From Pontibacter liquoris (GTDB taxonomy: Bacteria; Bacteroidota; Bacteroidia; Cytophagales; Hymenobacteraceae), in assembly GCF_022758235.1 (NCBI RefSeq), contig NZ_JALEBG010000001.1, forward strand, positions 558,001 through 622,000: 64,000 nucleotides of DNA, written 5' to 3'. Below are positions 44,339 to 57,019 of this stretch, piece after piece (position 1 is the stretch's first letter; every line of letters starts with the position of its first letter). The notes under the pieces are model-generated. The model was not told the DNA's origin. It saw only the letters and a program-made list of their open reading frames with translations, and did not search any database. The translations under genes were made by a program, and so were the position numbers.

Positions 44339-46873
44339 ATGAAAAAGCACTCTTTGCTATTCCGAACCCTCCGGATCCTGCCCCTGTTGCTCGTTTTATT
44401 ACAGCCGCTGCAGGCGCAAACGCCGGCCAAACACCCGGCCGGCAGCGTGCTGCAGGACCTCAAAAAGCTGCAGGTGCTGGGCTCGGTGCTGTATGTGGCC
44501 GCGCACCCCGACGATGAGAACACCCGCCTGATCGCGTACCTGAGCAACGAAAAACTATACAACACCGGCTACCTGGCCATAACGCGCGGCGATGGCGGGC
44601 AAAACCTGATCGGCCCGGAAATTCGCGAAGACCTGGGCATTATCCGCACGCAGGAGCTGCTGCAGGCCCGGCGTGTAGACGGTGGCCACCAGTTCTTTAC
44701 CCGCGCCAACGACTTTGGCTTTTCTAAAAATCCGGAAGAAACCTTTACTATCTGGGATAAAGAGCAGGTGCTGGCCGACATGGTCTGGGTGATCCGCAAA
44801 TTCCGGCCCGATGTCATGATTACCCGCTTCCCGCCAGATGAGCGCGCCGGTCACGGCCACCACACCGCCTCGGCCATACTTGCCGCCGAAGCATTTGACG
44901 CCGCCGGCGACGCAAGGCGCTTTCCCGAGCAACTGAAATATGTGGAAGTATGGCAGCCCAGGCGCCTGTTCTGGAACACGGGCGTATGGTCGTTTAAAAG
45001 CCAGGAGGAGTTTGAAAAGTTTGGCAAAGACCTGCTTAAAATAGATGTGGGCGGTTATAATCCGCTGTTGGGCAAATCCTATGGCGAGTTGGCCGCCGAA
45101 AGCCGCAGCATGCACAAAAGCCAGGGTTTCGGATCCTCGGGGAGCCGGGGCAGTGCGCTGGAATATTTTCAGCTGGTAAAAGGCGACAAAGCCACGCAAA
45201 GCCTGCTGGAGGGTGTGAACACCACCTGGAGCCGTGTGAAGGGCGGCGAAAAAGTGCAGAAACTGCTGCAGAAAGCCATCGATACCTATCAACCAGCTCA
45301 GTCGGCGGCAGTAGTGCCGACGCTATTAGCTGCAAAAAAAGAACTCGACAAATTGCCCGACAGCTACTGGAAACAAGTGAAAGCAGAAGAACTGCAGGAC
45401 GTGTTGCAGGAAGCGATGGGCTTATACCTGGAGGTTACCGCAAACGATTATGCCGCTACGCCCGGTGGGGAGGTAAAACTGCAGATCGAAGCCATTAACC
45501 GCTCTGCCCTGCCAGTTACGTTGAAGCACGTGCGCTACGCTTTTGCCTCCAAAGACACGACACTCAACTATAACCTGCCGGATAACGAGCCGCTAAAGTA
45601 TAGCACTGCTGCTACGCTGCCGGCTAGTATGCCGTATTCGCAGCCTTACTGGCTCCGCAAGCCGGGCACGCTGGGTATGTTCGCCATCGAAAACCAACAG
45701 GAGGTGGGCATGCCCGAAAATGCGCCTGCCGCGCAGGTAGCCTTCGAGCTGCAGGTAACAGGCCAGCCGCTTACTGTAACCGTGCCGGTGGTATACAAAC
45801 GCACCGATCCGGTAGCCGGCGAAGTATACCGCCCTTTTATCGTGACGCCGCCCGTTTTTGTAAACGTTACCGAGAAAGTATACATGTTTGCCAGCCAGGA
45901 GCCCAAACCGGTGCAGGTGCTGGTAAAGGCCGGCCGTGAAAACCTGGCCGGCAGCCTGCAACTGCAGGTACCACAAGGCTGGCGCACCGAGCCTGCTTCG
46001 GTGCCCTTCACCCTGAAAGAAAAAGGAGGGGAGCTGCTGGTGCGGTTTATGGTCTACCCGCCGCAGGGCCAGCAGGAAGCTCAGTTGCAGGCGGTTGCTA
46101 CCGTAGATGGCAAGAACTACAGCCAGGAGCTCAAAGAGATCAACTACAGCCACATACCGGCGCAGGTCAAATTTCCGGATGCGACGGCAAAGATCGTGAA
46201 GCTCGATCTTAAAAAGCAGGGCCAGCAGATCGGCTACATCATGGGCGCCGGCGACGAGATTCCGGCTAGCCTGCAGCAGATCGGCTATAACGTGACGCTG
46301 CTGGGTGACCAGGACATGCGCCTGAGCCGCCTGCAGCAGTATGATGCCATTATTGTGGGCGTGCGCGCCTACAACACCGTGGGTCGTTTGAAATTCTGGC
46401 AACCGGTACTATTGGAGTACGTCAAGAACGGCGGCAACATGATCGTGCAGTATAACAACAATTCCGGGCTCGTAACGCCTAACATTGCACCGTACCCGCT
46501 CAAGTTGTCCCGCGACCGGGTGACGGTGGAAGATGCGCCGGTACGTTTTCTGGCCCCTGGTCACCCGGTTCTCAACACACCTAACAAGATCACGCAGCAG
46601 GATTTCTCGGGATGGGTGCAGGAGCGCGGCACTTACTTTGCCAACGAGTGGAGCAACGATTTTGTGCCAATCCTATCGTCTAATGATCCCGGCGAAGCGC
46701 CTGCGAACGGAGGGTTACTGGTAGCGCTCTATGGCAAGGGAAACTACATCTACACGGGCTATGCGTTCTTCCGGGAGCTGCCTGCCGGCGTGCCGGGTGC
46801 CTACCGCTTGTTTGCCAACCTAATCTCGTTGGGGAAGAACAACAGCGACAGGAACAGCAAGGCAGCCAAATAA
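44339..46873 (+). CDS. Secreted PIG-L family deacetylase
   Basis: An 844-aa exported protein. Signal peptide 1-27 (ends PLQAQ). The N-terminal LmbE/PIG-L domain (about 45-260) has the zinc motif VAAHPDDENTRL (H56, D59 region) and DERAGHGHHTASAILAAEAF, so it should deacetylate an N-acetyl sugar derivative. A long C-terminal part (about 370-840) has Ig/NEW3-like beta domains and a final flavodoxin- or GATase-like region (YIMGAGDEIPASLQQIGYNV, QYDAIIVGVRAYNT). It probably acts on glycans in the periplasm. Followed 157 bp later by the membrane-peptide and symporter genes. Confidence 0.92.
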   Translation: MKKHSLLFRTLRILPLLLVLLQPLQAQTPAKHPAGSVLQDLKKLQVLGSVLYVAAHPDDENTRLIAYLSNEKLYNTGYLAITRGDGGQNLIGPEIREDLGIIRTQELLQARRVDGGHQFFTRANDFGFSKNPEETFTIWDKEQVLADMVWVIRKFRPDVMITRFPPDERAGHGHHTASAILAAEAFDAAGDARRFPEQLKYVEVWQPRRLFWNTGVWSFKSQEEFEKFGKDLLKIDVGGYNPLLGKSYGELAAESRSMHKSQGFGSSGSRGSALEYFQLVKGDKATQSLLEGVNTTWSRVKGGEKVQKLLQKAIDTYQPAQSAAVVPTLLAAKKELDKLPDSYWKQVKAEELQDVLQEAMGLYLEVTANDYAATPGGEVKLQIEAINRSALPVTLKHVRYAFASKDTTLNYNLPDNEPLKYSTAATLPASMPYSQPYWLRKPGTLGMFAIENQQEVGMPENAPAAQVAFELQVTGQPLTVTVPVVYKRTDPVAGEVYRPFIVTPPVFVNVTEKVYMFASQEPKPVQVLVKAGRENLAGSLQLQVPQGWRTEPASVPFTLKEKGGELLVRFMVYPPQGQQEAQLQAVATVDGKNYSQELKEINYSHIPAQVKFPDATAKIVKLDLKKQGQQIGYIMGAGDEIPASLQQIGYNVTLLGDQDMRLSRLQQYDAIIVGVRAYNTVGRLKFWQPVLLEYVKNGGNMIVQYNNNSGLVTPNIAPYPLKLSRDRVTVEDAPVRFLAPGHPVLNTPNKITQQDFSGWVQERGTYFANEWSNDFVPILSSNDPGEAPANGGLLVALYGKGNYIYTGYAFFRELPAGVPGAYRLFANLISLGKNNSDRNSKAAK

Positions 46874-47030: not shown

Positions 47031-47183
47031 ATGGAAGAAAAAGAACAACAGCCTGTAGATACTGAACCGGCACTCTGGAAGCCTCCTTTCTTTAAAAGCT
47101 GGGCAGGGATGTACTGGCTGGTGCTGGGCAACCTGGCTTTTATAATCATCCTGTTTTACATCATTACCAAAGTATACGAATGA
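47031..47183 (+). CDS. 50-aa membrane peptide coupled to sodium:solute symporter
   Basis: ATG at 47031, TGA at 47181-47183. The product starts MEEKEQQPVDTEPALWKPPF and ends in one strong transmembrane helix (SWAGMYWLVLGNLAFIIILF YIITKVYE in two parts). Its stop codon overlaps the symporter ATG (ATGA), so the two are translationally coupled. A small partner subunit of the symporter is a reasonable inference, by analogy with other small-protein/SSS-transporter pairs such as YhdT-PanF. Confidence 0.82.
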   Translation: MEEKEQQPVDTEPALWKPPFFKSWAGMYWLVLGNLAFIIILFYIITKVYE

Positions 47184-48883
47184 GACCACTTGACTGGATC
47201 GTGCTCCTGGGCACCCTGGGCTTTATCGTGATCTACGGGGTATGGAAAACCCGGGGCAGTACGGATATCGAAGGCTACCTGAAAGGCGACAACAGCATGA
47301 AATGGTGGACCATTGGACTGTCTGTAATGGCCACACAGGCCAGCGCCATCACCTTCCTTTCCACGCCTGGCCAGGCTTACGAAGACGGGATGCGCTTTGT
47401 GCAGTTCTACTTCGGGCTCCCCATTGCCATGGTCATCATCTCCATCACGGTTATCCCCATTTTTTACCGGCTCAATGTATACACCGCTTACGAGTTTCTG
47501 GAGAACCGCTTCGACTTGAAGACGCGCACCCTGGCGGCCCTGCTGTTTTTGGTGCAGCGCGGGCTGGCAGCCGGCATCACCATCTACGCGCCAGCCATTA
47601 TTCTTTCCACCATGCTGGGCTGGTCCCTGACGGTAACGATCCTTGTGATTGGGATGCTGGTAATCATCTACACGGTCTCCGGGGGCACCAAAGCCGTGAG
47701 CGTTACCCAAAAGCAGCAAATGGCCGTGATGATTGGCGGTATGCTGGTGGCCGGTATTATGGTGGTTCATTACCTGCCCCAGGACGTGAGCCTGGGCGAT
47801 GCCGTGGCGGTGGCCGGTAAAATGGGCAAGATGAATGTGGTGGATTTTTCCTTCGACTGGAACGACCGCTATAACTTCTGGTCCGGCATAACGGGCGGCC
47901 TTTTCCTGGCGCTGTCTTATTTTGGTACTGATCAAAGCCAGGTAGCCCGTTACCTGGGCGGCAAATCCGTAACCGAAAGCCGGCTGGGGCTGCTCTTCAA
48001 CGGACTGCTCAAGATACCCATGCAATTCATGATTTTGTTCATTGGTGTGATGGTATTTGTGTTCTACCAGTTCAACCAACCGCCGGTATTCTTTAACGAG
48101 GGCGTTAAAAGCAAGGTATATGCCACGCCCTATGCCGGTGAGCTGCGGGCCCTGGAAACCACGTATAGTGCCGCTTTTGCAGAACAAAAGCAAGGCGTGC
48201 AAGACCTGGTTGTTGCTTTAAAGACCGACAACGAAGCCGACATTGCTGCAGCCAAAACAAAAGTCACCAATCTTACGGCCGCTACCAAGGCGGTGCGGGA
48301 AGAGGCGATCGGGGTGATTAAAAAAGCTGCGCCCGAAGCGGAAACCCGCGACACGGACTACGTTTTTATCTCTTTTGTGATGAAATACTTGCCGGCCGGT
48401 CTGGTGGGGCTGTTGCTGGCCGTGATCTTCTCGGCGGCTATGTCGTCCTCGTCGTCGGAACTGAATGCACTTGCCTCCACCACCGTGGTAGACCTCTACA
48501 AACGTTCGGTGAAGCCGTTTGGCGATGCCACTCATTACCTGAATGCCTCCAAATTATTTACCGTCGCGTGGGGACTCATCGCCGTGCTTTTCGCCATTTA
48601 TGCCTCGTTGCTCGACAACCTGATCCAAGCCGTTAATATCGTGGGTTCCATCTTTTATGGCACCATACTCGGCATTTTTCTGGTAGCTTTTTACTTCAAA
48701 CACATCCGAGGCAACGCTGTTTTCTGGGCAGCCGTGCTGGCCGAGCTGGTGGTGCTTTACTGCCATTTCTACACGTCCATCGCTTTTCTGTGGTTTAACG
48801 TGATCGGCTGTGGCTGCGTGATCCTGTTCGGCTTTATCCTTCAGGCTGTGTTGGGTAAAAAGAAAGAATTGGTGGCGCAGTAG
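47180..48883 (+). CDS. Sodium:solute symporter (SSS family)
   Basis: A 567-aa transporter of the SSS/SLC5 fold with about 13 transmembrane helices. TM1-2 region MKWWTIGLSVMATQASAITF and the Na2-site region FSAAMSSSSSELNALASTTV are family hallmarks; ALSYFGTDQSQVARYLGGKS matches the conserved intracellular motif. Unusually, about 90 soluble residues (roughly 300-395, KSKVYATPYAGELRALETTY through EAETRDTDYVF), rich in Ala, Lys and Glu and likely helical, are inserted before the last helices. Substrate unknown. Overlaps the 50-aa peptide gene by 4 bp and lies downstream of the PIG-L deacetylase. Confidence 0.93.
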   Translation: MRPLDWIVLLGTLGFIVIYGVWKTRGSTDIEGYLKGDNSMKWWTIGLSVMATQASAITFLSTPGQAYEDGMRFVQFYFGLPIAMVIISITVIPIFYRLNVYTAYEFLENRFDLKTRTLAALLFLVQRGLAAGITIYAPAIILSTMLGWSLTVTILVIGMLVIIYTVSGGTKAVSVTQKQQMAVMIGGMLVAGIMVVHYLPQDVSLGDAVAVAGKMGKMNVVDFSFDWNDRYNFWSGITGGLFLALSYFGTDQSQVARYLGGKSVTESRLGLLFNGLLKIPMQFMILFIGVMVFVFYQFNQPPVFFNEGVKSKVYATPYAGELRALETTYSAAFAEQKQGVQDLVVALKTDNEADIAAAKTKVTNLTAATKAVREEAIGVIKKAAPEAETRDTDYVFISFVMKYLPAGLVGLLLAVIFSAAMSSSSSELNALASTTVVDLYKRSVKPFGDATHYLNASKLFTVAWGLIAVLFAIYASLLDNLIQAVNIVGSIFYGTILGIFLVAFYFKHIRGNAVFWAAVLAELVVLYCHFYTSIAFLWFNVIGCGCVILFGFILQAVLGKKKELVAQ

Positions 48884-48956: not shown

Positions 48957-49540
48957 TCCTGAAGTATAAGCGATGTCGTACCGGGGCCAACCATCCCTGC
49001 CCCTCAGAGCTACGCTCGCTAGCTTCGAACCCGCGTTCTGGCTAGTCTAAGGAGGGGAGTCTGTTGTTAGTACTTGTGAAGTATAAGCGGTGTAATTTAG
49101 GCTTCATCAGCTTTCCACCAAGATCCTTTCAGGATGACAAAAAGAAAGAGGCTGGAGAGTAAGTTTATTCTGGAGTCAAAGTATAAACAGCATAGTTTAG
49201 GAGAAAGAAGAACATCCCCCTACCCCCTTCAAAGGGGGACTTGGTATAAGTTGCAAAGCAAAGAACAGCAGCTATCGAAAGATTCCCAGTCCTTGGGTTG
49301 AGCGCCTTGGTGTGTTGCGGTGCCGCGCATGCGGCAGCCCGCTAGGGCAGCTTCACGCCACAGCGCGAAACGCAAGGACGAGCCCCCGCGGGCTTGGAGC
49401 GCTCCAAAGCAAAAGATGAAACAAGGCAAGTATAAGACTGCGGAATACAGCTCACTACCAAGTATAGCTGGAATATTATACTTGAAAATCAGTTGCTAAC
49501 AAAGTATAGCCGAAGTATAAAACCGAACAGCAACCAGCTC
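48957..49540 (+). repeat. Composite intergenic element, copy 2
   Basis: The second copy, between convergent symporter and methyltransferase genes. It has every module: leader GAAGTATAAGCG, module A (CTCAGAGCTACGCTCGCTAG, about 49003), module B (49120-49139), C-rich module C (49213-49240), structured core (49272-49435) and the AAGTATAGC-rich tail. It is the most complete plus-oriented copy. Confidence 0.9.
49272..49435 (+). ncRNA. Structured core of composite element, copy 2 (candidate RNA)
   Basis: Outer helix GTCCTTG (49289-49295) with CAAGGAC (49373-49379). Apical hairpin TGCCGC-GCAT-GCGGCA (49321-49336) differs from copy 1 on both arms yet still pairs. A second hairpin GCCC-GCTA-GGGC (49337-49348) replaces a longer, less regular segment in copies 1 and 3. 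Palindrome TTGGAGCGCTCCAA at 49394-49407. The RNA label is a hypothesis. Confidence 0.45.
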
Positions 49541-50589: not shown

Positions 50590-51459
50590 CTATTTCATTT
50601 TCTTCCAGTCGGCAATGGCTTTCTGGTTCAGGGCCACATAATCCTGGTTGCCTTCTTTCTGGGCCAGTTCCATCGATTTCTGGGCAGTCTTGATGGCGTC
50701 TTTGTAGTTATTCAGCTTAGCCTGGATCTTTGCCTGCGTGTGCAGGTTGTAATATTTGACATCTTTCTCGTTTGCTTTTTTCATCCACGCCAGCGCCTGC
50801 TTCAGGTCCTTGTCCGAGCTGAAATAGTAGTTGGCCGCCGCCGCATACAGGCCGGGCTCCACGTTAGTGCCGTTCACTACCTGCTGCTGTATCTGGCTCA
50901 TTACTTTGCTATCTACGTCTGTTTTAACGGTAAACGGCACCACCACATCATCCCACAGGATTTCGATGTCGGTGGCAGTTGGCGTAACGTTGGCAAAGTT
51001 AATGGTAAAGGATTCTGCTTTGCGCGGGTTCTGCTGTGGCTTTACTTTAAAGCGCAGCTGGTCCTGCTCGGGCTTGTAGTCTTTGCCGCCATCGCCCCAA
51101 AGCTCGGTGTTTTTATGCAGGATAACCGTCCACTCGGCTTTGCCCGGAATAGTATACAGGGCATACTTGCCGGCCGGCACCTTGTTTCCTTCTATTGTTA
51201 CCTCGTCGGTAAACGTAATGTCGGTAGAGCCGTTTGCGCCGGTGCGCCACATTTTATCATAAGGCACCAGGTCGCCGAAGATGGTGCGGCCTTTCATAGC
51301 GGGGCGCGAATACTCCACGGTAACAGTAGACAACCCCACCGCCTGCTCTACTTTGGAAGACGGGCTGGCAGAAGGCATTTTAATGCCCTGGGCCTGTATA
51401 GTGCCTGCACCCAGCAGCAGGGCAGCAGAAAGGGCGAAGCCAAGTAGGTTTCTTTTCAT
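50590..51459 (-). CDS. DUF2911-domain exported protein
   Basis: A 289-aa periplasmic protein. Signal peptide 1-24 (ends IQAQ). The DUF2911 domain (about 30-165) shows the family markers VTVEYSRPAMKGRTIFGDLV, YDKMWRTGANGSTDITF and GKYALYTIPGKAEWTVIL. The C-terminal 100 residues form TPR-like helices (DLKQALAWMKKANEKDVKYY, NLHTQAKIQAKLNNYKDAIK). Function is unknown in the family. A terminator follows; monocistronic. Confidence 0.93.
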   Translation of the reverse strand: MKRNLLGFALSAALLLGAGTIQAQGIKMPSASPSSKVEQAVGLSTVTVEYSRPAMKGRTIFGDLVPYDKMWRTGANGSTDITFTDEVTIEGNKVPAGKYALYTIPGKAEWTVILHKNTELWGDGGKDYKPEQDQLRFKVKPQQNPRKAESFTINFANVTPTATDIEILWDDVVVPFTVKTDVDSKVMSQIQQQVVNGTNVEPGLYAAAANYYFSSDKDLKQALAWMKKANEKDVKYYNLHTQAKIQAKLNNYKDAIKTAQKSMELAQKEGNQDYVALNQKAIADWKKMK

Positions 51460-53775: not shown

Positions 53776-54430
53776 CGTTAGCGGCCGTTCTTCAAGTATA
53801 AACTCCGGCTATACTTACTAGCAGCCTTTCTTGCTCAGTCTTATACTTGTCTTGTTTCATCTTTTACTTTGGAGCGCTCCAAGCCCGCGGGGGCTCGTCC
53901 TTGCGTTTCGCGCTGTGGCGTGAAGCTGCTCCTCGCTGACGCTGCGGGCTGCCCTTCGGGCACCGCAACACACCAAGGCGCTCAACCCAAGGACTGGGAT
54001 CAATTCGATAGCTTAGGTTTATACTTCAGCTAAAGTATAGGTATAAACCGTCTCTCCTTGCCTCTTACTCCTTTGTCATCCTGAAAGGATCTTGGTGGAA
54101 GGGAGGTTAAACCTTTCCTACGCAAGCGTTCTCTTCCTCCATCAGCCCAAAGTCCCCCTTTGAAGGGGGTAGGGGGATGTTCTTCTTCAACCAGAACTAA
54201 CCCGTTTATACTTTAGCTCGAGTATAAACTTACACTCCATGCCTCTTTCCTATTCTGTCATCCTGAAAGGATCTTGGTAGAAAGCTGATGAAGCCTAAAT
54301 TACACCGCTTATACTTCTCAAGTAGCAACAACAGACTCCCCTCCGTAGACTAGCGAGAACGCGGGTTCGAAGTTAGCGAGCGCAGCTCTGAGGGCCAGGG
54401 GTGGTTGGACCCGGGAAAGCAAAGTATACC
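53776..54430 (-). repeat. Composite intergenic element, copy 3 (inverted)
   Basis: The third copy, reversed relative to the other three and in the same direction as its flanking minus-strand genes. Read on the minus strand: module A (near 54360), module B twice (54256-54275 and 54074-54093), C-rich module C (54152-54178), structured core (53841-54012) and tail words. It is the longest copy because module B is duplicated. Confidence 0.9.
53841..54012 (-). ncRNA. Structured core of composite element, copy 3 (candidate RNA)
   Basis: On the minus strand the same helices as copy 1: GTCCTTG/CAAGGAC (53988-53994 and 53897-53903), apical hairpin TGCCC-GAA-GGGCA (53950-53962) and palindrome TTGGAGCGCTCCAA (53869-53882). 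Nearly identical to copy 1 over the whole core, although the flanks differ. The RNA label is a hypothesis. Confidence 0.45.
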
Positions 54431-54438
54431 GCAGCACG

Positions 54439-55923
54439 CTACAATACTGCCTTAACTTGCTGCTGCTGCCGTTCCATGGCGCTTGCTTTGCCTGATGAAA
54501 TGGCCAACAGCCCGGCAAACGTGAGAAAGCCGTTGAGGAGCAGCACTTCAAAGCCGAACTCATAGCCGAAAAGCCACTCTTTGGAGTTAAGGCTGATGAT
54601 ATAGGTCAGGATCGGAGCAAGCACACAAATGGCTGGCACAAACCGGTCGCGGACAGCGCGCCTGGTGTACAACCCGAACGCATAAAGGCCCAGCAGCGGC
54701 CCGTAGGTATAACCAGCCACCGTAAACATGGTGGAAATTACGCTCGCAGAGTTGAGCACTTTAAAGGCGATCACGACCAGCACCATTACCACCGAAACGC
54801 CGGCATGCGCCAGGTAGCGCAGGCGTACGCGCGCATGTTCGCTCCTGTTTTTGAAATCCAGGAAATCGACGCAGAAGGAAGTGGTCAGCGCCGTCAGGGC
54901 AGAGTCGGCGGATGCGTAGGTGATGGCAATAATGCCTAGTATGAACACAATGCCCAAGAAAGCCGAGAAGTGGTTTAAGGCCAGGTAAGGGTATACATCA
55001 TCGCCCTTGGCGGGCAGCGAAATGCCTTTGGTTTCAGCGTAAGTATACAACAGCACCCCGAGCGTGAGGAACAGCACATTCACGATCACCAGGATCACGT
55101 TAAACCAGAACATGTTTTTCTGGGCCTCGCCAATGTTTTTGCAGCTCAGGTTTTTCTGCATCATGTCCTGGTCAAGGCCCGTCATGGCAATGGTGATAAA
55201 AGCGCCTGCAAAGAACTGCTTCAGGAAAAAGTTGCCCGCTTTCACGTCCCAGACAAACACCGAGGTATAAGGGCTTTGCTGCACCGTGGCCACCAGGCTC
55301 TGTAAGCCATAGTTCAGCTCATCGGCAATGAGCCAGATCGTAGTGGCTACAGCTACCAGCATGGTCAGTGTCTGAAAGGTGTCGGTCCAGATAATGGTTT
55401 TCATACCGCCCCGGAAGGTATAAACCCAGATCAGCAGGATGGTGATGATCACAGACACGGCAAACGGAACACCCAGCGCATCAAAAACTGCCAGTTGCAG
55501 CACGCCGGTTACCAGAAAAACTCGTATGGCGGCCAGCAGCGTGCGTGAGAGCAGGAAAAAGGCCGCTCCCGTTTTATAAGACCAGAAGCCGAACCGCTGC
55601 TCCAGGTAAGTATAGATCGACACAAGATTAAGGCGATAATAGAGCGGCATCAGCACCGTGGCAATAACTAGGTAGCCCAGCAGGTAGCCCATCACCATCT
55701 GCAGGTAAGAGAACTGCGCCGTAGCCACCATGCCCGGCAGCGACACAAACGTTACGCCTGAAAGCGTGGTGCCGATCATGCCAAAGGCCACCACATACCA
55801 CGGTGATTTGCGGTTTGCCAGAAAGAAAGTGTCTGAATCAGTTTTGCTGCCGGTTACATAAGCAATGAGGATCAGGATGCAGAAATAGGCAACGATCAGG
55901 CCGATGATAAGGGAAGAGGACAT
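54439..55923 (-). CDS. Sodium:solute symporter (SSS family), second
   Basis: A 494-aa SSS-family transporter with about 13 helices. The start at MSSSLIIGLIVAYFCILILI is chosen; the reading frame stays open 65 codons further, but that part has Cys/Pro-rich composition and overlaps the neighbouring MBL gene. Hallmarks are IGTTLSGVTFVSLPGMVATA (TM2 region), LDQDMMQKNLSCKNIGEAQK and TYASADSALTALTTSFCVDF (Na2 site). The substrate is unknown. It lies 80 bp after the MBL hydrolase gene on the same strand. Confidence 0.92.
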   Translation of the reverse strand: MSSSLIIGLIVAYFCILILIAYVTGSKTDSDTFFLANRKSPWYVVAFGMIGTTLSGVTFVSLPGMVATAQFSYLQMVMGYLLGYLVIATVLMPLYYRLNLVSIYTYLEQRFGFWSYKTGAAFFLLSRTLLAAIRVFLVTGVLQLAVFDALGVPFAVSVIITILLIWVYTFRGGMKTIIWTDTFQTLTMLVAVATTIWLIADELNYGLQSLVATVQQSPYTSVFVWDVKAGNFFLKQFFAGAFITIAMTGLDQDMMQKNLSCKNIGEAQKNMFWFNVILVIVNVLFLTLGVLLYTYAETKGISLPAKGDDVYPYLALNHFSAFLGIVFILGIIAITYASADSALTALTTSFCVDFLDFKNRSEHARVRLRYLAHAGVSVVMVLVVIAFKVLNSASVISTMFTVAGYTYGPLLGLYAFGLYTRRAVRDRFVPAICVLAPILTYIISLNSKEWLFGYEFGFEVLLLNGFLTFAGLLAISSGKASAMERQQQQVKAVL

Positions 55924-56002
55924 AGCAGATGCTGTTGGTAAAACCGGCGTAGGCAGCCAGAAATACAAAGATAGCAAAAGTATGGCGCCGGTGCGACCGC
56001 CT

Positions 56003-57019
56003 TTAGTATAGCTCGTGCAGCAGCAGGGGCTGGCCAATGGCAGGCAGCTGGAGGCCCTGCAGCACGCCGGCCGCCGCAAGCTGCTCCAATATACGCACCG
56101 GCTCACCGGCAGGCTCATCCGACAGGTCGAAAGTGCCGTAATGCATCGGGATGAGCGTGCCGCCCTGCAGCAGGTTGTAGGCCCGCACCGCCTCGTGGGG
56201 GTTCACATGGCTCTTGCTCATCATAAAAGCAGGCTTGTAGGCCCCCACCGGCATAATACAGACATCCATGGGGCCGAACAGCTCCTGTATCTCGTCGAAG
56301 TGGTTGCCCATGGCGGTGTCGCCGGCAAAGTATAGGTTTAGCTCCGGCGTTTTTAGCAGAAAGCTGCCCCAGAGGACGCTGTTCATGTCGTTAAGGCCGC
56401 GGCGGTGCCAGTGCGAGGCGGGCAGGTAGTATACTTCCACACTGCCGGGCACCAGGTCAAAGCGCTGGTACCAGCCCGCTTCCTGGTAAGGCAGGTGCGG
56501 ACTGATGCCCCGCAAAATCTCGCCGGCACGCAACGGCACAAGCGCTTTAAGGTCCGGGTTGTTTTTGAATACCGTGCGCACCGATTCCTTGTCCAGGTGG
56601 TCGCGGTGCCCGTGCGAGAGGAGCAGGAAATCTACCGGCCGGAGGTCATCAGGGGAGCAGGGTAGCCCCACCCGCCGTTTGATCAGGGGCAGGTCGTAAA
56701 AAACAGGATCGATGAGAAACGTAAGGCCCTGAAGGCGGATAAAAAAGCTGGCATGGCCCAGCCACACGATCATGTCGTCGGGGGCCTGCATAAAATCACA
56801 GCCCGGCTGCACCGGCGGCACATAGGTGTCCGCCTTTTTTTCTTTAGCCTGCGGATTTTTGGATAACCGCCACTTCAGTACATTCCGGAAGTCGGGTTCA
56901 TACAGCTCGTCACCATTAGCGAAACGGCCATTTACTACTTTGTTGCCCCTGTAATCTGGTTTAATGGTTTCGAGGCGTTCGTTCTTAATATGGCGGATGT
57001 GCTTTTTTGTACGTGGCAA
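56003..57019 (-). CDS. MBL-fold metallo-hydrolase (NAPE-PLD/UlaG-like)
   Basis: A 338-aa metallo-beta-lactamase-fold hydrolase. The two-metal motif is LLLSHGHRDHLDKES; further ligands lie in LPASHWHRRGLNDMN and LYFAGDTAMGNHFDEI, then PMHYGTFDL supplies the last His. The N-terminal VVNGRFANGDELYEPDFRNV and WLGHASFFIRLQGLTFLIDP match the N-acyl-phosphatidylethanolamine phospholipase D-like subgroup, which cleaves phosphodiesters in lipids or sugars. It is upstream of the second symporter; a functional link is possible but unproven. Confidence 0.93.
   Translation of the reverse strand: MPRTKKHIRHIKNERLETIKPDYRGNKVVNGRFANGDELYEPDFRNVLKWRLSKNPQAKEKKADTYVPPVQPGCDFMQAPDDMIVWLGHASFFIRLQGLTFLIDPVFYDLPLIKRRVGLPCSPDDLRPVDFLLLSHGHRDHLDKESVRTVFKNNPDLKALVPLRAGEILRGISPHLPYQEAGWYQRFDLVPGSVEVYYLPASHWHRRGLNDMNSVLWGSFLLKTPELNLYFAGDTAMGNHFDEIQELFGPMDVCIMPVGAYKPAFMMSKSHVNPHEAVRAYNLLQGGTLIPMHYGTFDLSDEPAGEPVRILEQLAAAGVLQGLQLPAIGQPLLLHELY

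Follow-up and report, generated by a model that had tools for sequence, protein, structure and literature searches.

Between the genes for a PIG-L family protein and for a sodium/solute symporter of the SSS (SLC5-type) family, the stretch of Pontibacter liquoris DNA studied here, 64,000 nucleotides long and called the window throughout, holds an open reading frame (ORF) of only 50 codons. Is this frame a gene and, if so, does its product work with the transporter, with the enzyme, independently of both, or merely by being translated? A preliminary description of the locus proposed a peptide with one membrane helix that is translationally coupled to the symporter, the three genes together suggesting a deacetylate-and-import unit with a dedicated small subunit. 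From comparative sequence analysis, we consider it probable, at nearly four chances in five, that the product of the ORF is a subunit with a single span, dedicated to the symporter that follows it and along which it would pack. A literature search with partial journal coverage gave no paper on the peptide among the matches listed.

The peptide and its neighbours

The ORF lies on the forward strand at 47031–47183 and its product is MEEKEQQPVDTEPALWKPPFFKSWAGMYWLVLGNLAFIIILFYIITKVYE. It consists of a Glu/Pro-rich head, the segment KPPFFKSW and a single hydrophobic helix at about residues 27–47, and its TGA (47181–47183) shares bases with the symporter ATG (47180–47182), forming an ATGA overlap at 47180–47183 on the forward strand. 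Length, spacing and a permutation test, given below, delimit a conserved core encoded at 47100–47180 (forward strand), which runs for 27 residues from Trp24 to the C-terminus and carries a W-x3-Y motif and one conserved helix face.

The symporter (47180–48883, forward strand, 567 residues) belongs to the SSS family by its scores of 143.4 bits with PF00474 (cut-off 22.8) and 240.8 bits with TIGR00813 (cut-off 184). Its nearest solved chain by sequence is 5nv9, titled as a sialic acid symporter, and the solved relatives follow in the order SiaT, SMVT, SMCT1, NIS and the SGLTs. The model of a homologue (locus L098) has the SSS fold, superposing on 5nva with a Z of 42.5 and an rmsd of 2.2 over 464 aligned residues, and its fold is also closest to SiaT. 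Residues of about 310–390 in the window symporter form a variable, charged and probably helical stretch between conserved halves, and the SSS model matches the protein in two stretches around it. A search of plasmid records for the symporter returned nothing at E up to 1e-100.

The PIG-L family protein (44339–46873, forward strand, 844 residues) ends 157 bp before the peptide ORF. It starts with a signal-peptide-like segment, matches PF02585 with 57.2 bits (cut-off 28.2) and contains HGHH at 172 and AHPDDE at 55, the latter of which we take to be the metal motif of the family; it is likely to be an exported de-N-acetylase or amidase. We considered Mca, MshB and BshB as identities for this protein and rejected them, since its scores fall below the equivalog cut-offs (57.6 against 277.15 bits for TIGR03446, 27.6 against 224.35 for TIGR03445, 26.3 against 195.25 for TIGR04000 and 20.3 against 182.5 for TIGR04001), and for this reason we assign it no substrate. 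By sequence, it matched no solved structure at E up to 0.001.

A conserved gene under purifying selection

The preliminary description let its proposal stand or fall with the presence of the frame and of its overlap in close relatives. Both are kept: the frame is present in all 25 Pontibacter genomes, the window's own included, always directly upstream of the symporter with the PIG-L gene further upstream, and the ATGA overlap in 24 of the 25, the exception (L006) reading TAATG. In other families of the order the peptide occurs in 7 of 14 genomes, which brings the total to 32 of 39 related genomes; there, the symporter follows the peptide in 7 of 7 and the PIG-L gene precedes it in 4 of 7. Over the 34-codon core from KPP to the end, 300 sequence pairs give a pN/pS of 0.22 (pS 0.53, pN 0.12), and the other two forward frames of the same DNA give 1.17 and 1.44.

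How often such a frame would arise by chance was gauged in shuffled DNA and beside other symporters. In mononucleotide-shuffled upstream DNA the motif appeared in 14 of 1600 cases with a 260-bp window and in 2 of 1600 with a 160-bp window. The motif scan found none upstream of 35 SSS genes outside the clade, comprising the other five of the window's genome and the best-scoring one from each of 30 phylum genomes, all placed outside the clade by profile scores and not by a tree. A looser scan of these control loci gave two matches: the frame at L233 overlaps the symporter start and was taken as chance, and the ORF at L235 encodes a DUF485 protein of 104 residues (PF04341, 104.5 bits, 3e-30). The window itself holds a second SSS gene of another branch at 54439–56118 on the reverse strand, about 5.5 kb downstream, with no motif peptide upstream of it.

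The peptide matched no Pfam model above E 0.067 and no NCBIfam model. When 56 members of its family were compared with both libraries, Pfam gave one match for each of three members and NCBIfam a match for one, all at E 0.004–0.01; each match was to a different model and we take the four as chance. On this profile evidence, the peptide is a member of a phylum-wide family that has no Pfam or NCBIfam model. The lack of a matching model is also what an untranslated frame, open by chance before the symporter, would show. Such an origin is scarcely conceivable, however, for a frame whose fixed length and motif are conserved from Pontibacter to Myxococcus, whose pN/pS is 0.22 and whose motif shuffling recreates in only 14 of 1600 cases. 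Its presence throughout the genus, the ATGA overlap in 24 of 25 genomes, the pN/pS value and the shuffle and control rates make the ORF more than a chance frame, and it looks like a real gene.

Anatomy of the peptide

The features of the peptide were compared over 222 loci, which derive from 250 partly overlapping sequences (L188 and L271, for example, are one genome fetched twice) and are not a count of species. From the Trp to the C-terminus there are 27 residues in 187 of the 222 loci and 25 to 30 in the rest, and the spacing from the Trp to the Tyr or His is 4 in 220 of the 222; since the motif scan demands W-x2-3-[YH], the conservation of Trp and Tyr is partly by construction. In the head, both length and sequence are free to vary.

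The charge and face analyses were confined to peptides of exactly 27 residues (187 of the 222 loci, giving 176 and 173 distinct rows, respectively). Lys and Arg together average 2.6 in the N-terminal flank versus 0.6 in the last six residues, and the flank is the richer in 152 of 176 distinct peptides. By the positive-inside rule this excess makes a cytoplasmic location of the Glu/Pro-rich head most likely. After the Trp, the most conserved positions are +4, +7, +11, +15, +18, +22 and +25, and conservation is strongest at 100 degrees per residue (permutation p 0.002, with the positions used for selection left out). The conserved face, made up of W, Y, V/L, L, I, F, T and F/Y, points to the Trp/Tyr side although Trp and Tyr were excluded from the permutation test. 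A membrane-crossing helix with one conserved side is what packing against a protein would lead one to expect.

Tests for contact with the symporter

Mean-field direct coupling analysis (DCA) was applied with a reduced alphabet to 216 peptide–symporter pairs, left after six duplicate pairs were dropped from 222, with an effective depth of 122. The top peptide–symporter coupling had a z of 8.2, within the range of 6.2–9.5 given by eight shuffled pairings. In the set of 250 sequences, the symporters of the genus are cut at about 500 residues. AlphaFold2, run on the peptide–symporter read-through of L098, modelled the symporter well and gave the peptide part a pLDDT of 53–62. We set aside a joint alignment of peptide-only rows and symporters, in which symporter-internal columns were invariant over all rows, the rows seemingly being misplaced. 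Linkage, fixed length, the one-sided helix face and the retention of the peptide apart from the symporter give good support to the proposal of a dedicated small subunit; DCA and the read-through model gave no sign of contact.

Linkage to the symporter clade

The phylum set comprised 395 Bacteroidota genomes and was searched with a 17-row profile of the peptide and with an alignment of the symporter. The peptide profile matched 88 places in 85 genomes and the symporter clade 144 places in 143 genomes. Of the peptide matches, 76 precede a same-strand clade symporter by −1 to 91 bp, and every one of these carries W-x3-[YH] in the motif scan. Among the remaining 68 symporter places, the profile had missed a small one-span ORF directly upstream in 59, and nine have none; the motif is present in 45 of the 59 ORFs and absent from 14 (family f51, part of family f37, L182 and L203), which may be unrelated to the peptide family. 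In total, a small one-span ORF stands directly upstream at 135 of the 144 symporter places and has W-x3-[YH] in 121. Because the small membrane peptide is encoded before the importer nearly everywhere the importer is found, it is most likely an overlooked subunit of it.

The nine places without an adjacent peptide fall into two kinds. At five of them the contig carries the peptide gene at another site: about 15 kb upstream in G064, G076, G092 and G138, which belong to one genus and probably reflect one event, and at a distance of 108 kb in G312. For the other four of the 144 places (G200, G151, G174 and G182) no convincing peptide was found anywhere in the genome, and in the last three the symporter start overlaps the PIG-L stop; some clade symporters do without the peptide.

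Beyond this set, we examined named loci, taking the 80 best of at least 587 candidate stretches. A motif peptide is present in 78 of these 80, and two (L105 and L130) have none nearby. Peptide-bearing loci among them reach outside Bacteroidota, to Myxococcus (L096, L113), a Myxococcales metagenome-assembled genome (MAG, L109), a Deltaproteobacteria MAG (L120) and an Opitutales MAG (L106). In one genome a second copy of the pair occurs (G331:C1:21418-23222; L044, L355), with four stops in the symporter frame and an intact peptide.

The overlap of stop and start raises the alternative that the ORF is a cis-acting leader, whose translation only starts or regulates that of the symporter and whose product has no function. 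ATGA in 24 of 25 genus genomes, and in 53 of the 78 motif-bearing loci from the best 80 of at least 587, is what such a device would show. Three lines of evidence make it quite improbable. First of all, the amino-acid sequence is under purifying selection and has a conserved face and a fixed length. Second, the peptide is kept at 64–241 bp from the symporter in six loci (193 bp upstream in L078), at about 15 kb in four genomes and at 108 kb in one, and this retention at a distance, in five genomes and six loci, speaks against a mere translation device. Third, ATGA is not fixed farther out: among 105 refetched phylum places with the motif, 44 have it and 61 do not.

Alternatively, the peptide might act independently as a small membrane protein, for instance as a homo-oligomer or as a regulator of stress or of the envelope, and share no more than its expression with the symporter. 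The one-sided conserved helix could also serve self-association, the peptide can be encoded apart from the symporter, and neither DCA nor the read-through model gave a sign of contact. Yet this is unlikely, as only 12 of the 88 phylum matches are not beside a clade symporter, and the three of these that look like true members (G312, G138 and G076), each a separate small ORF, are all in genomes that also encode a clade symporter; furthermore, no other partner gene recurs as steadily. Natural peptide–symporter fusions were sought among the 12 and none was found, those in long frames being parts of other proteins.

The PIG-L neighbour and possible cargo

Does the peptide, then, serve the enzyme on its other side, as an anchor or chaperone for PIG-L? 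Such a role would fit a PIG-L gene that lies upstream in 25 of 25 Pontibacter genomes and, in 66 of the 80 named loci (the top 80 of at least 587), ends no more than 600 bp before the symporter. It is very improbable nonetheless, as the peptide accompanies the symporter even with no PIG-L gene alongside, in 3 of 7 loci from other families of the order and in 12 of the 14 named loci without an adjacent PIG-L (from the same best 80 of at least 587), and the four genomes in which the peptide was not found, G151, G174, G182 and G200, keep PIG-L. Across the phylum, PIG-L was found within 700 bp upstream at 34 of 68 places, all of them outside f37 and f51, and not found within that distance at the other 34, where the peptide mostly stays with the symporter. 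Because it remains there without PIG-L, the peptide belongs to the symporter and not to a fixed three-gene module. The deacetylate-and-import unit is thus plausible but not general: it agrees with the arrangement in Pontibacter and in 66 of the best 80 of at least 587 loci, and fails where PIG-L is absent.

A few neighbourhoods bear on the cargo. In two genomes of family f37 (L268:4502-6176 and L275:7497-9212), the symporter has as neighbours a small PIG-L gene and a gene for glucosamine-6-phosphate deaminase (PF01182; the nagB score exceeds its cut-off). In an Aminicenantes contig (L130:3125-6695), bshB1 and bshA, both over their NCBIfam cut-offs, run directly into the symporter gene, and no peptide is present there; these genes hint at a link to bacillithiol. 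The three loci together hint at a glucosamine-type compound and offer a lead. Co-occurrence was rejected as a way to the bacillithiol link, BshC being present in 384 of the 395 phylum genomes and hence uninformative.

Other features of the surroundings are recorded here as observations. A DUF2911 gene (PF11138, 186 bits) lies near the PIG-L and symporter genes at 50590–51459 of the window on the reverse strand, and inspection by eye showed look-alikes close to the symporter in at least nine further loci (L033, L036, L037, L080, L083, L143, L144, L273 and L274), standing next upstream of PIG-L in L273 and L274. Two intergenic stretches of the window, at about 49280–49420 and 53850–54010, share sequence, translated as GTATHQGAQPKDW on opposite strands, and are perhaps a repeat element.

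Comparison with known small partners of transporters

MAP17 (PDZK1IP1), which accompanies human SGLT2 (SLC5A2), resembles the peptide in being a single membrane helix on an SLC5/SSS transporter; its soluble parts are longer, and its gene does not lie next to that of its partner. Searched against PDB chains, the family profile drew no match at E up to 1; so short a peptide could still be distantly related to MAP17. According to the part of PMC10803289 available to us, the MAP17 helix contacts TM13 of SGLT2, transport by SGLT2 requires MAP17, and a role of MAP17 in localisation and folding has been argued.

Among bacterial proteins, the DUF485 family (Escherichia coli YjcH, before the acetate permease ActP) likewise provides a small membrane protein directly upstream of an SSS symporter. 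DUF485 proteins, on the other hand, have about 90–100 residues and two spans and go with another SSS branch, and, with E limited to 0.01, PF04341 matched none of the 56 members of the present family. Further small upstream partners of SSS symporters are TIGR03647/DUF4212, a putative sodium:solute symporter small subunit, and YhdT beside PanF, both with two spans. TIGR03647/DUF4212 gave no match to the 56 members in NCBIfam and Pfam searches at E up to 0.01, and TIGR03648, the model of the corresponding large subunit, scores the window symporter at 41.7 bits against a cut-off of 320.75. Very small one-helix subunits are known from other large bacterial transporters, as with KdpF on KdpABC. KdpF and AcrZ differ from the peptide in serving transporter classes other than SSS and have no known sequence relation to it. 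AcrZ, acting on AcrB, is similar in size and in having one helix (PMC7267776, in part). The available portion of a review of prokaryotic SSS proteins (PMC7918813) mentions no subunit, accessory or small protein, yhdT, DUF or oligomer, and that of PMC7746861 uses 'subunit' for enzymes only. Small membrane partners of SSS symporters are thus known, and the present family, with one span and about 30–60 residues, is by profile comparison matched to none of them.

A proposed mechanism and its significance

If the peptide is a symporter subunit, its head would lie in the cytoplasm and its C-terminus in the periplasm, and the overlap of stop and start would let both proteins be made together at the membrane. 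The conserved face would then pack along one of the symporter's membrane helices, and the peptide may aid folding, stability or cycling of the symporter in the manner of MAP17 with SGLT2. In loci with PIG-L upstream, the symporter could plausibly take up a product that PIG-L releases outside the cytoplasm; that this product is an amino sugar is perhaps the case, and is the weak step. A broader picture, possible but in our view rather doubtful, is that this large bacterial SLC5-type branch works as heterodimers with a single helix of 30–60 residues that no family model covers, as a bacterial counterpart of SGLT2–MAP17, and in many species takes up glucosamine-type compounds (an amino sugar or a bacillithiol fragment) from exported PIG-L.

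If the subunit assignment is true, a subunit of a widespread bacterial branch of SLC5 relatives would be missing from family libraries. Its signature for annotation, W-x3-[YH] with 27 residues to the C-terminus and usually directly upstream of the symporter, is simple, and functional and structural work on clade symporters should then co-express the small ORF. More importantly, the pair would offer a simple bacterial system for what one accessory helix does to an SLC5 transporter, an effect that, in the available part of PMC10803289, is still debated for MAP17 and SGLT2.
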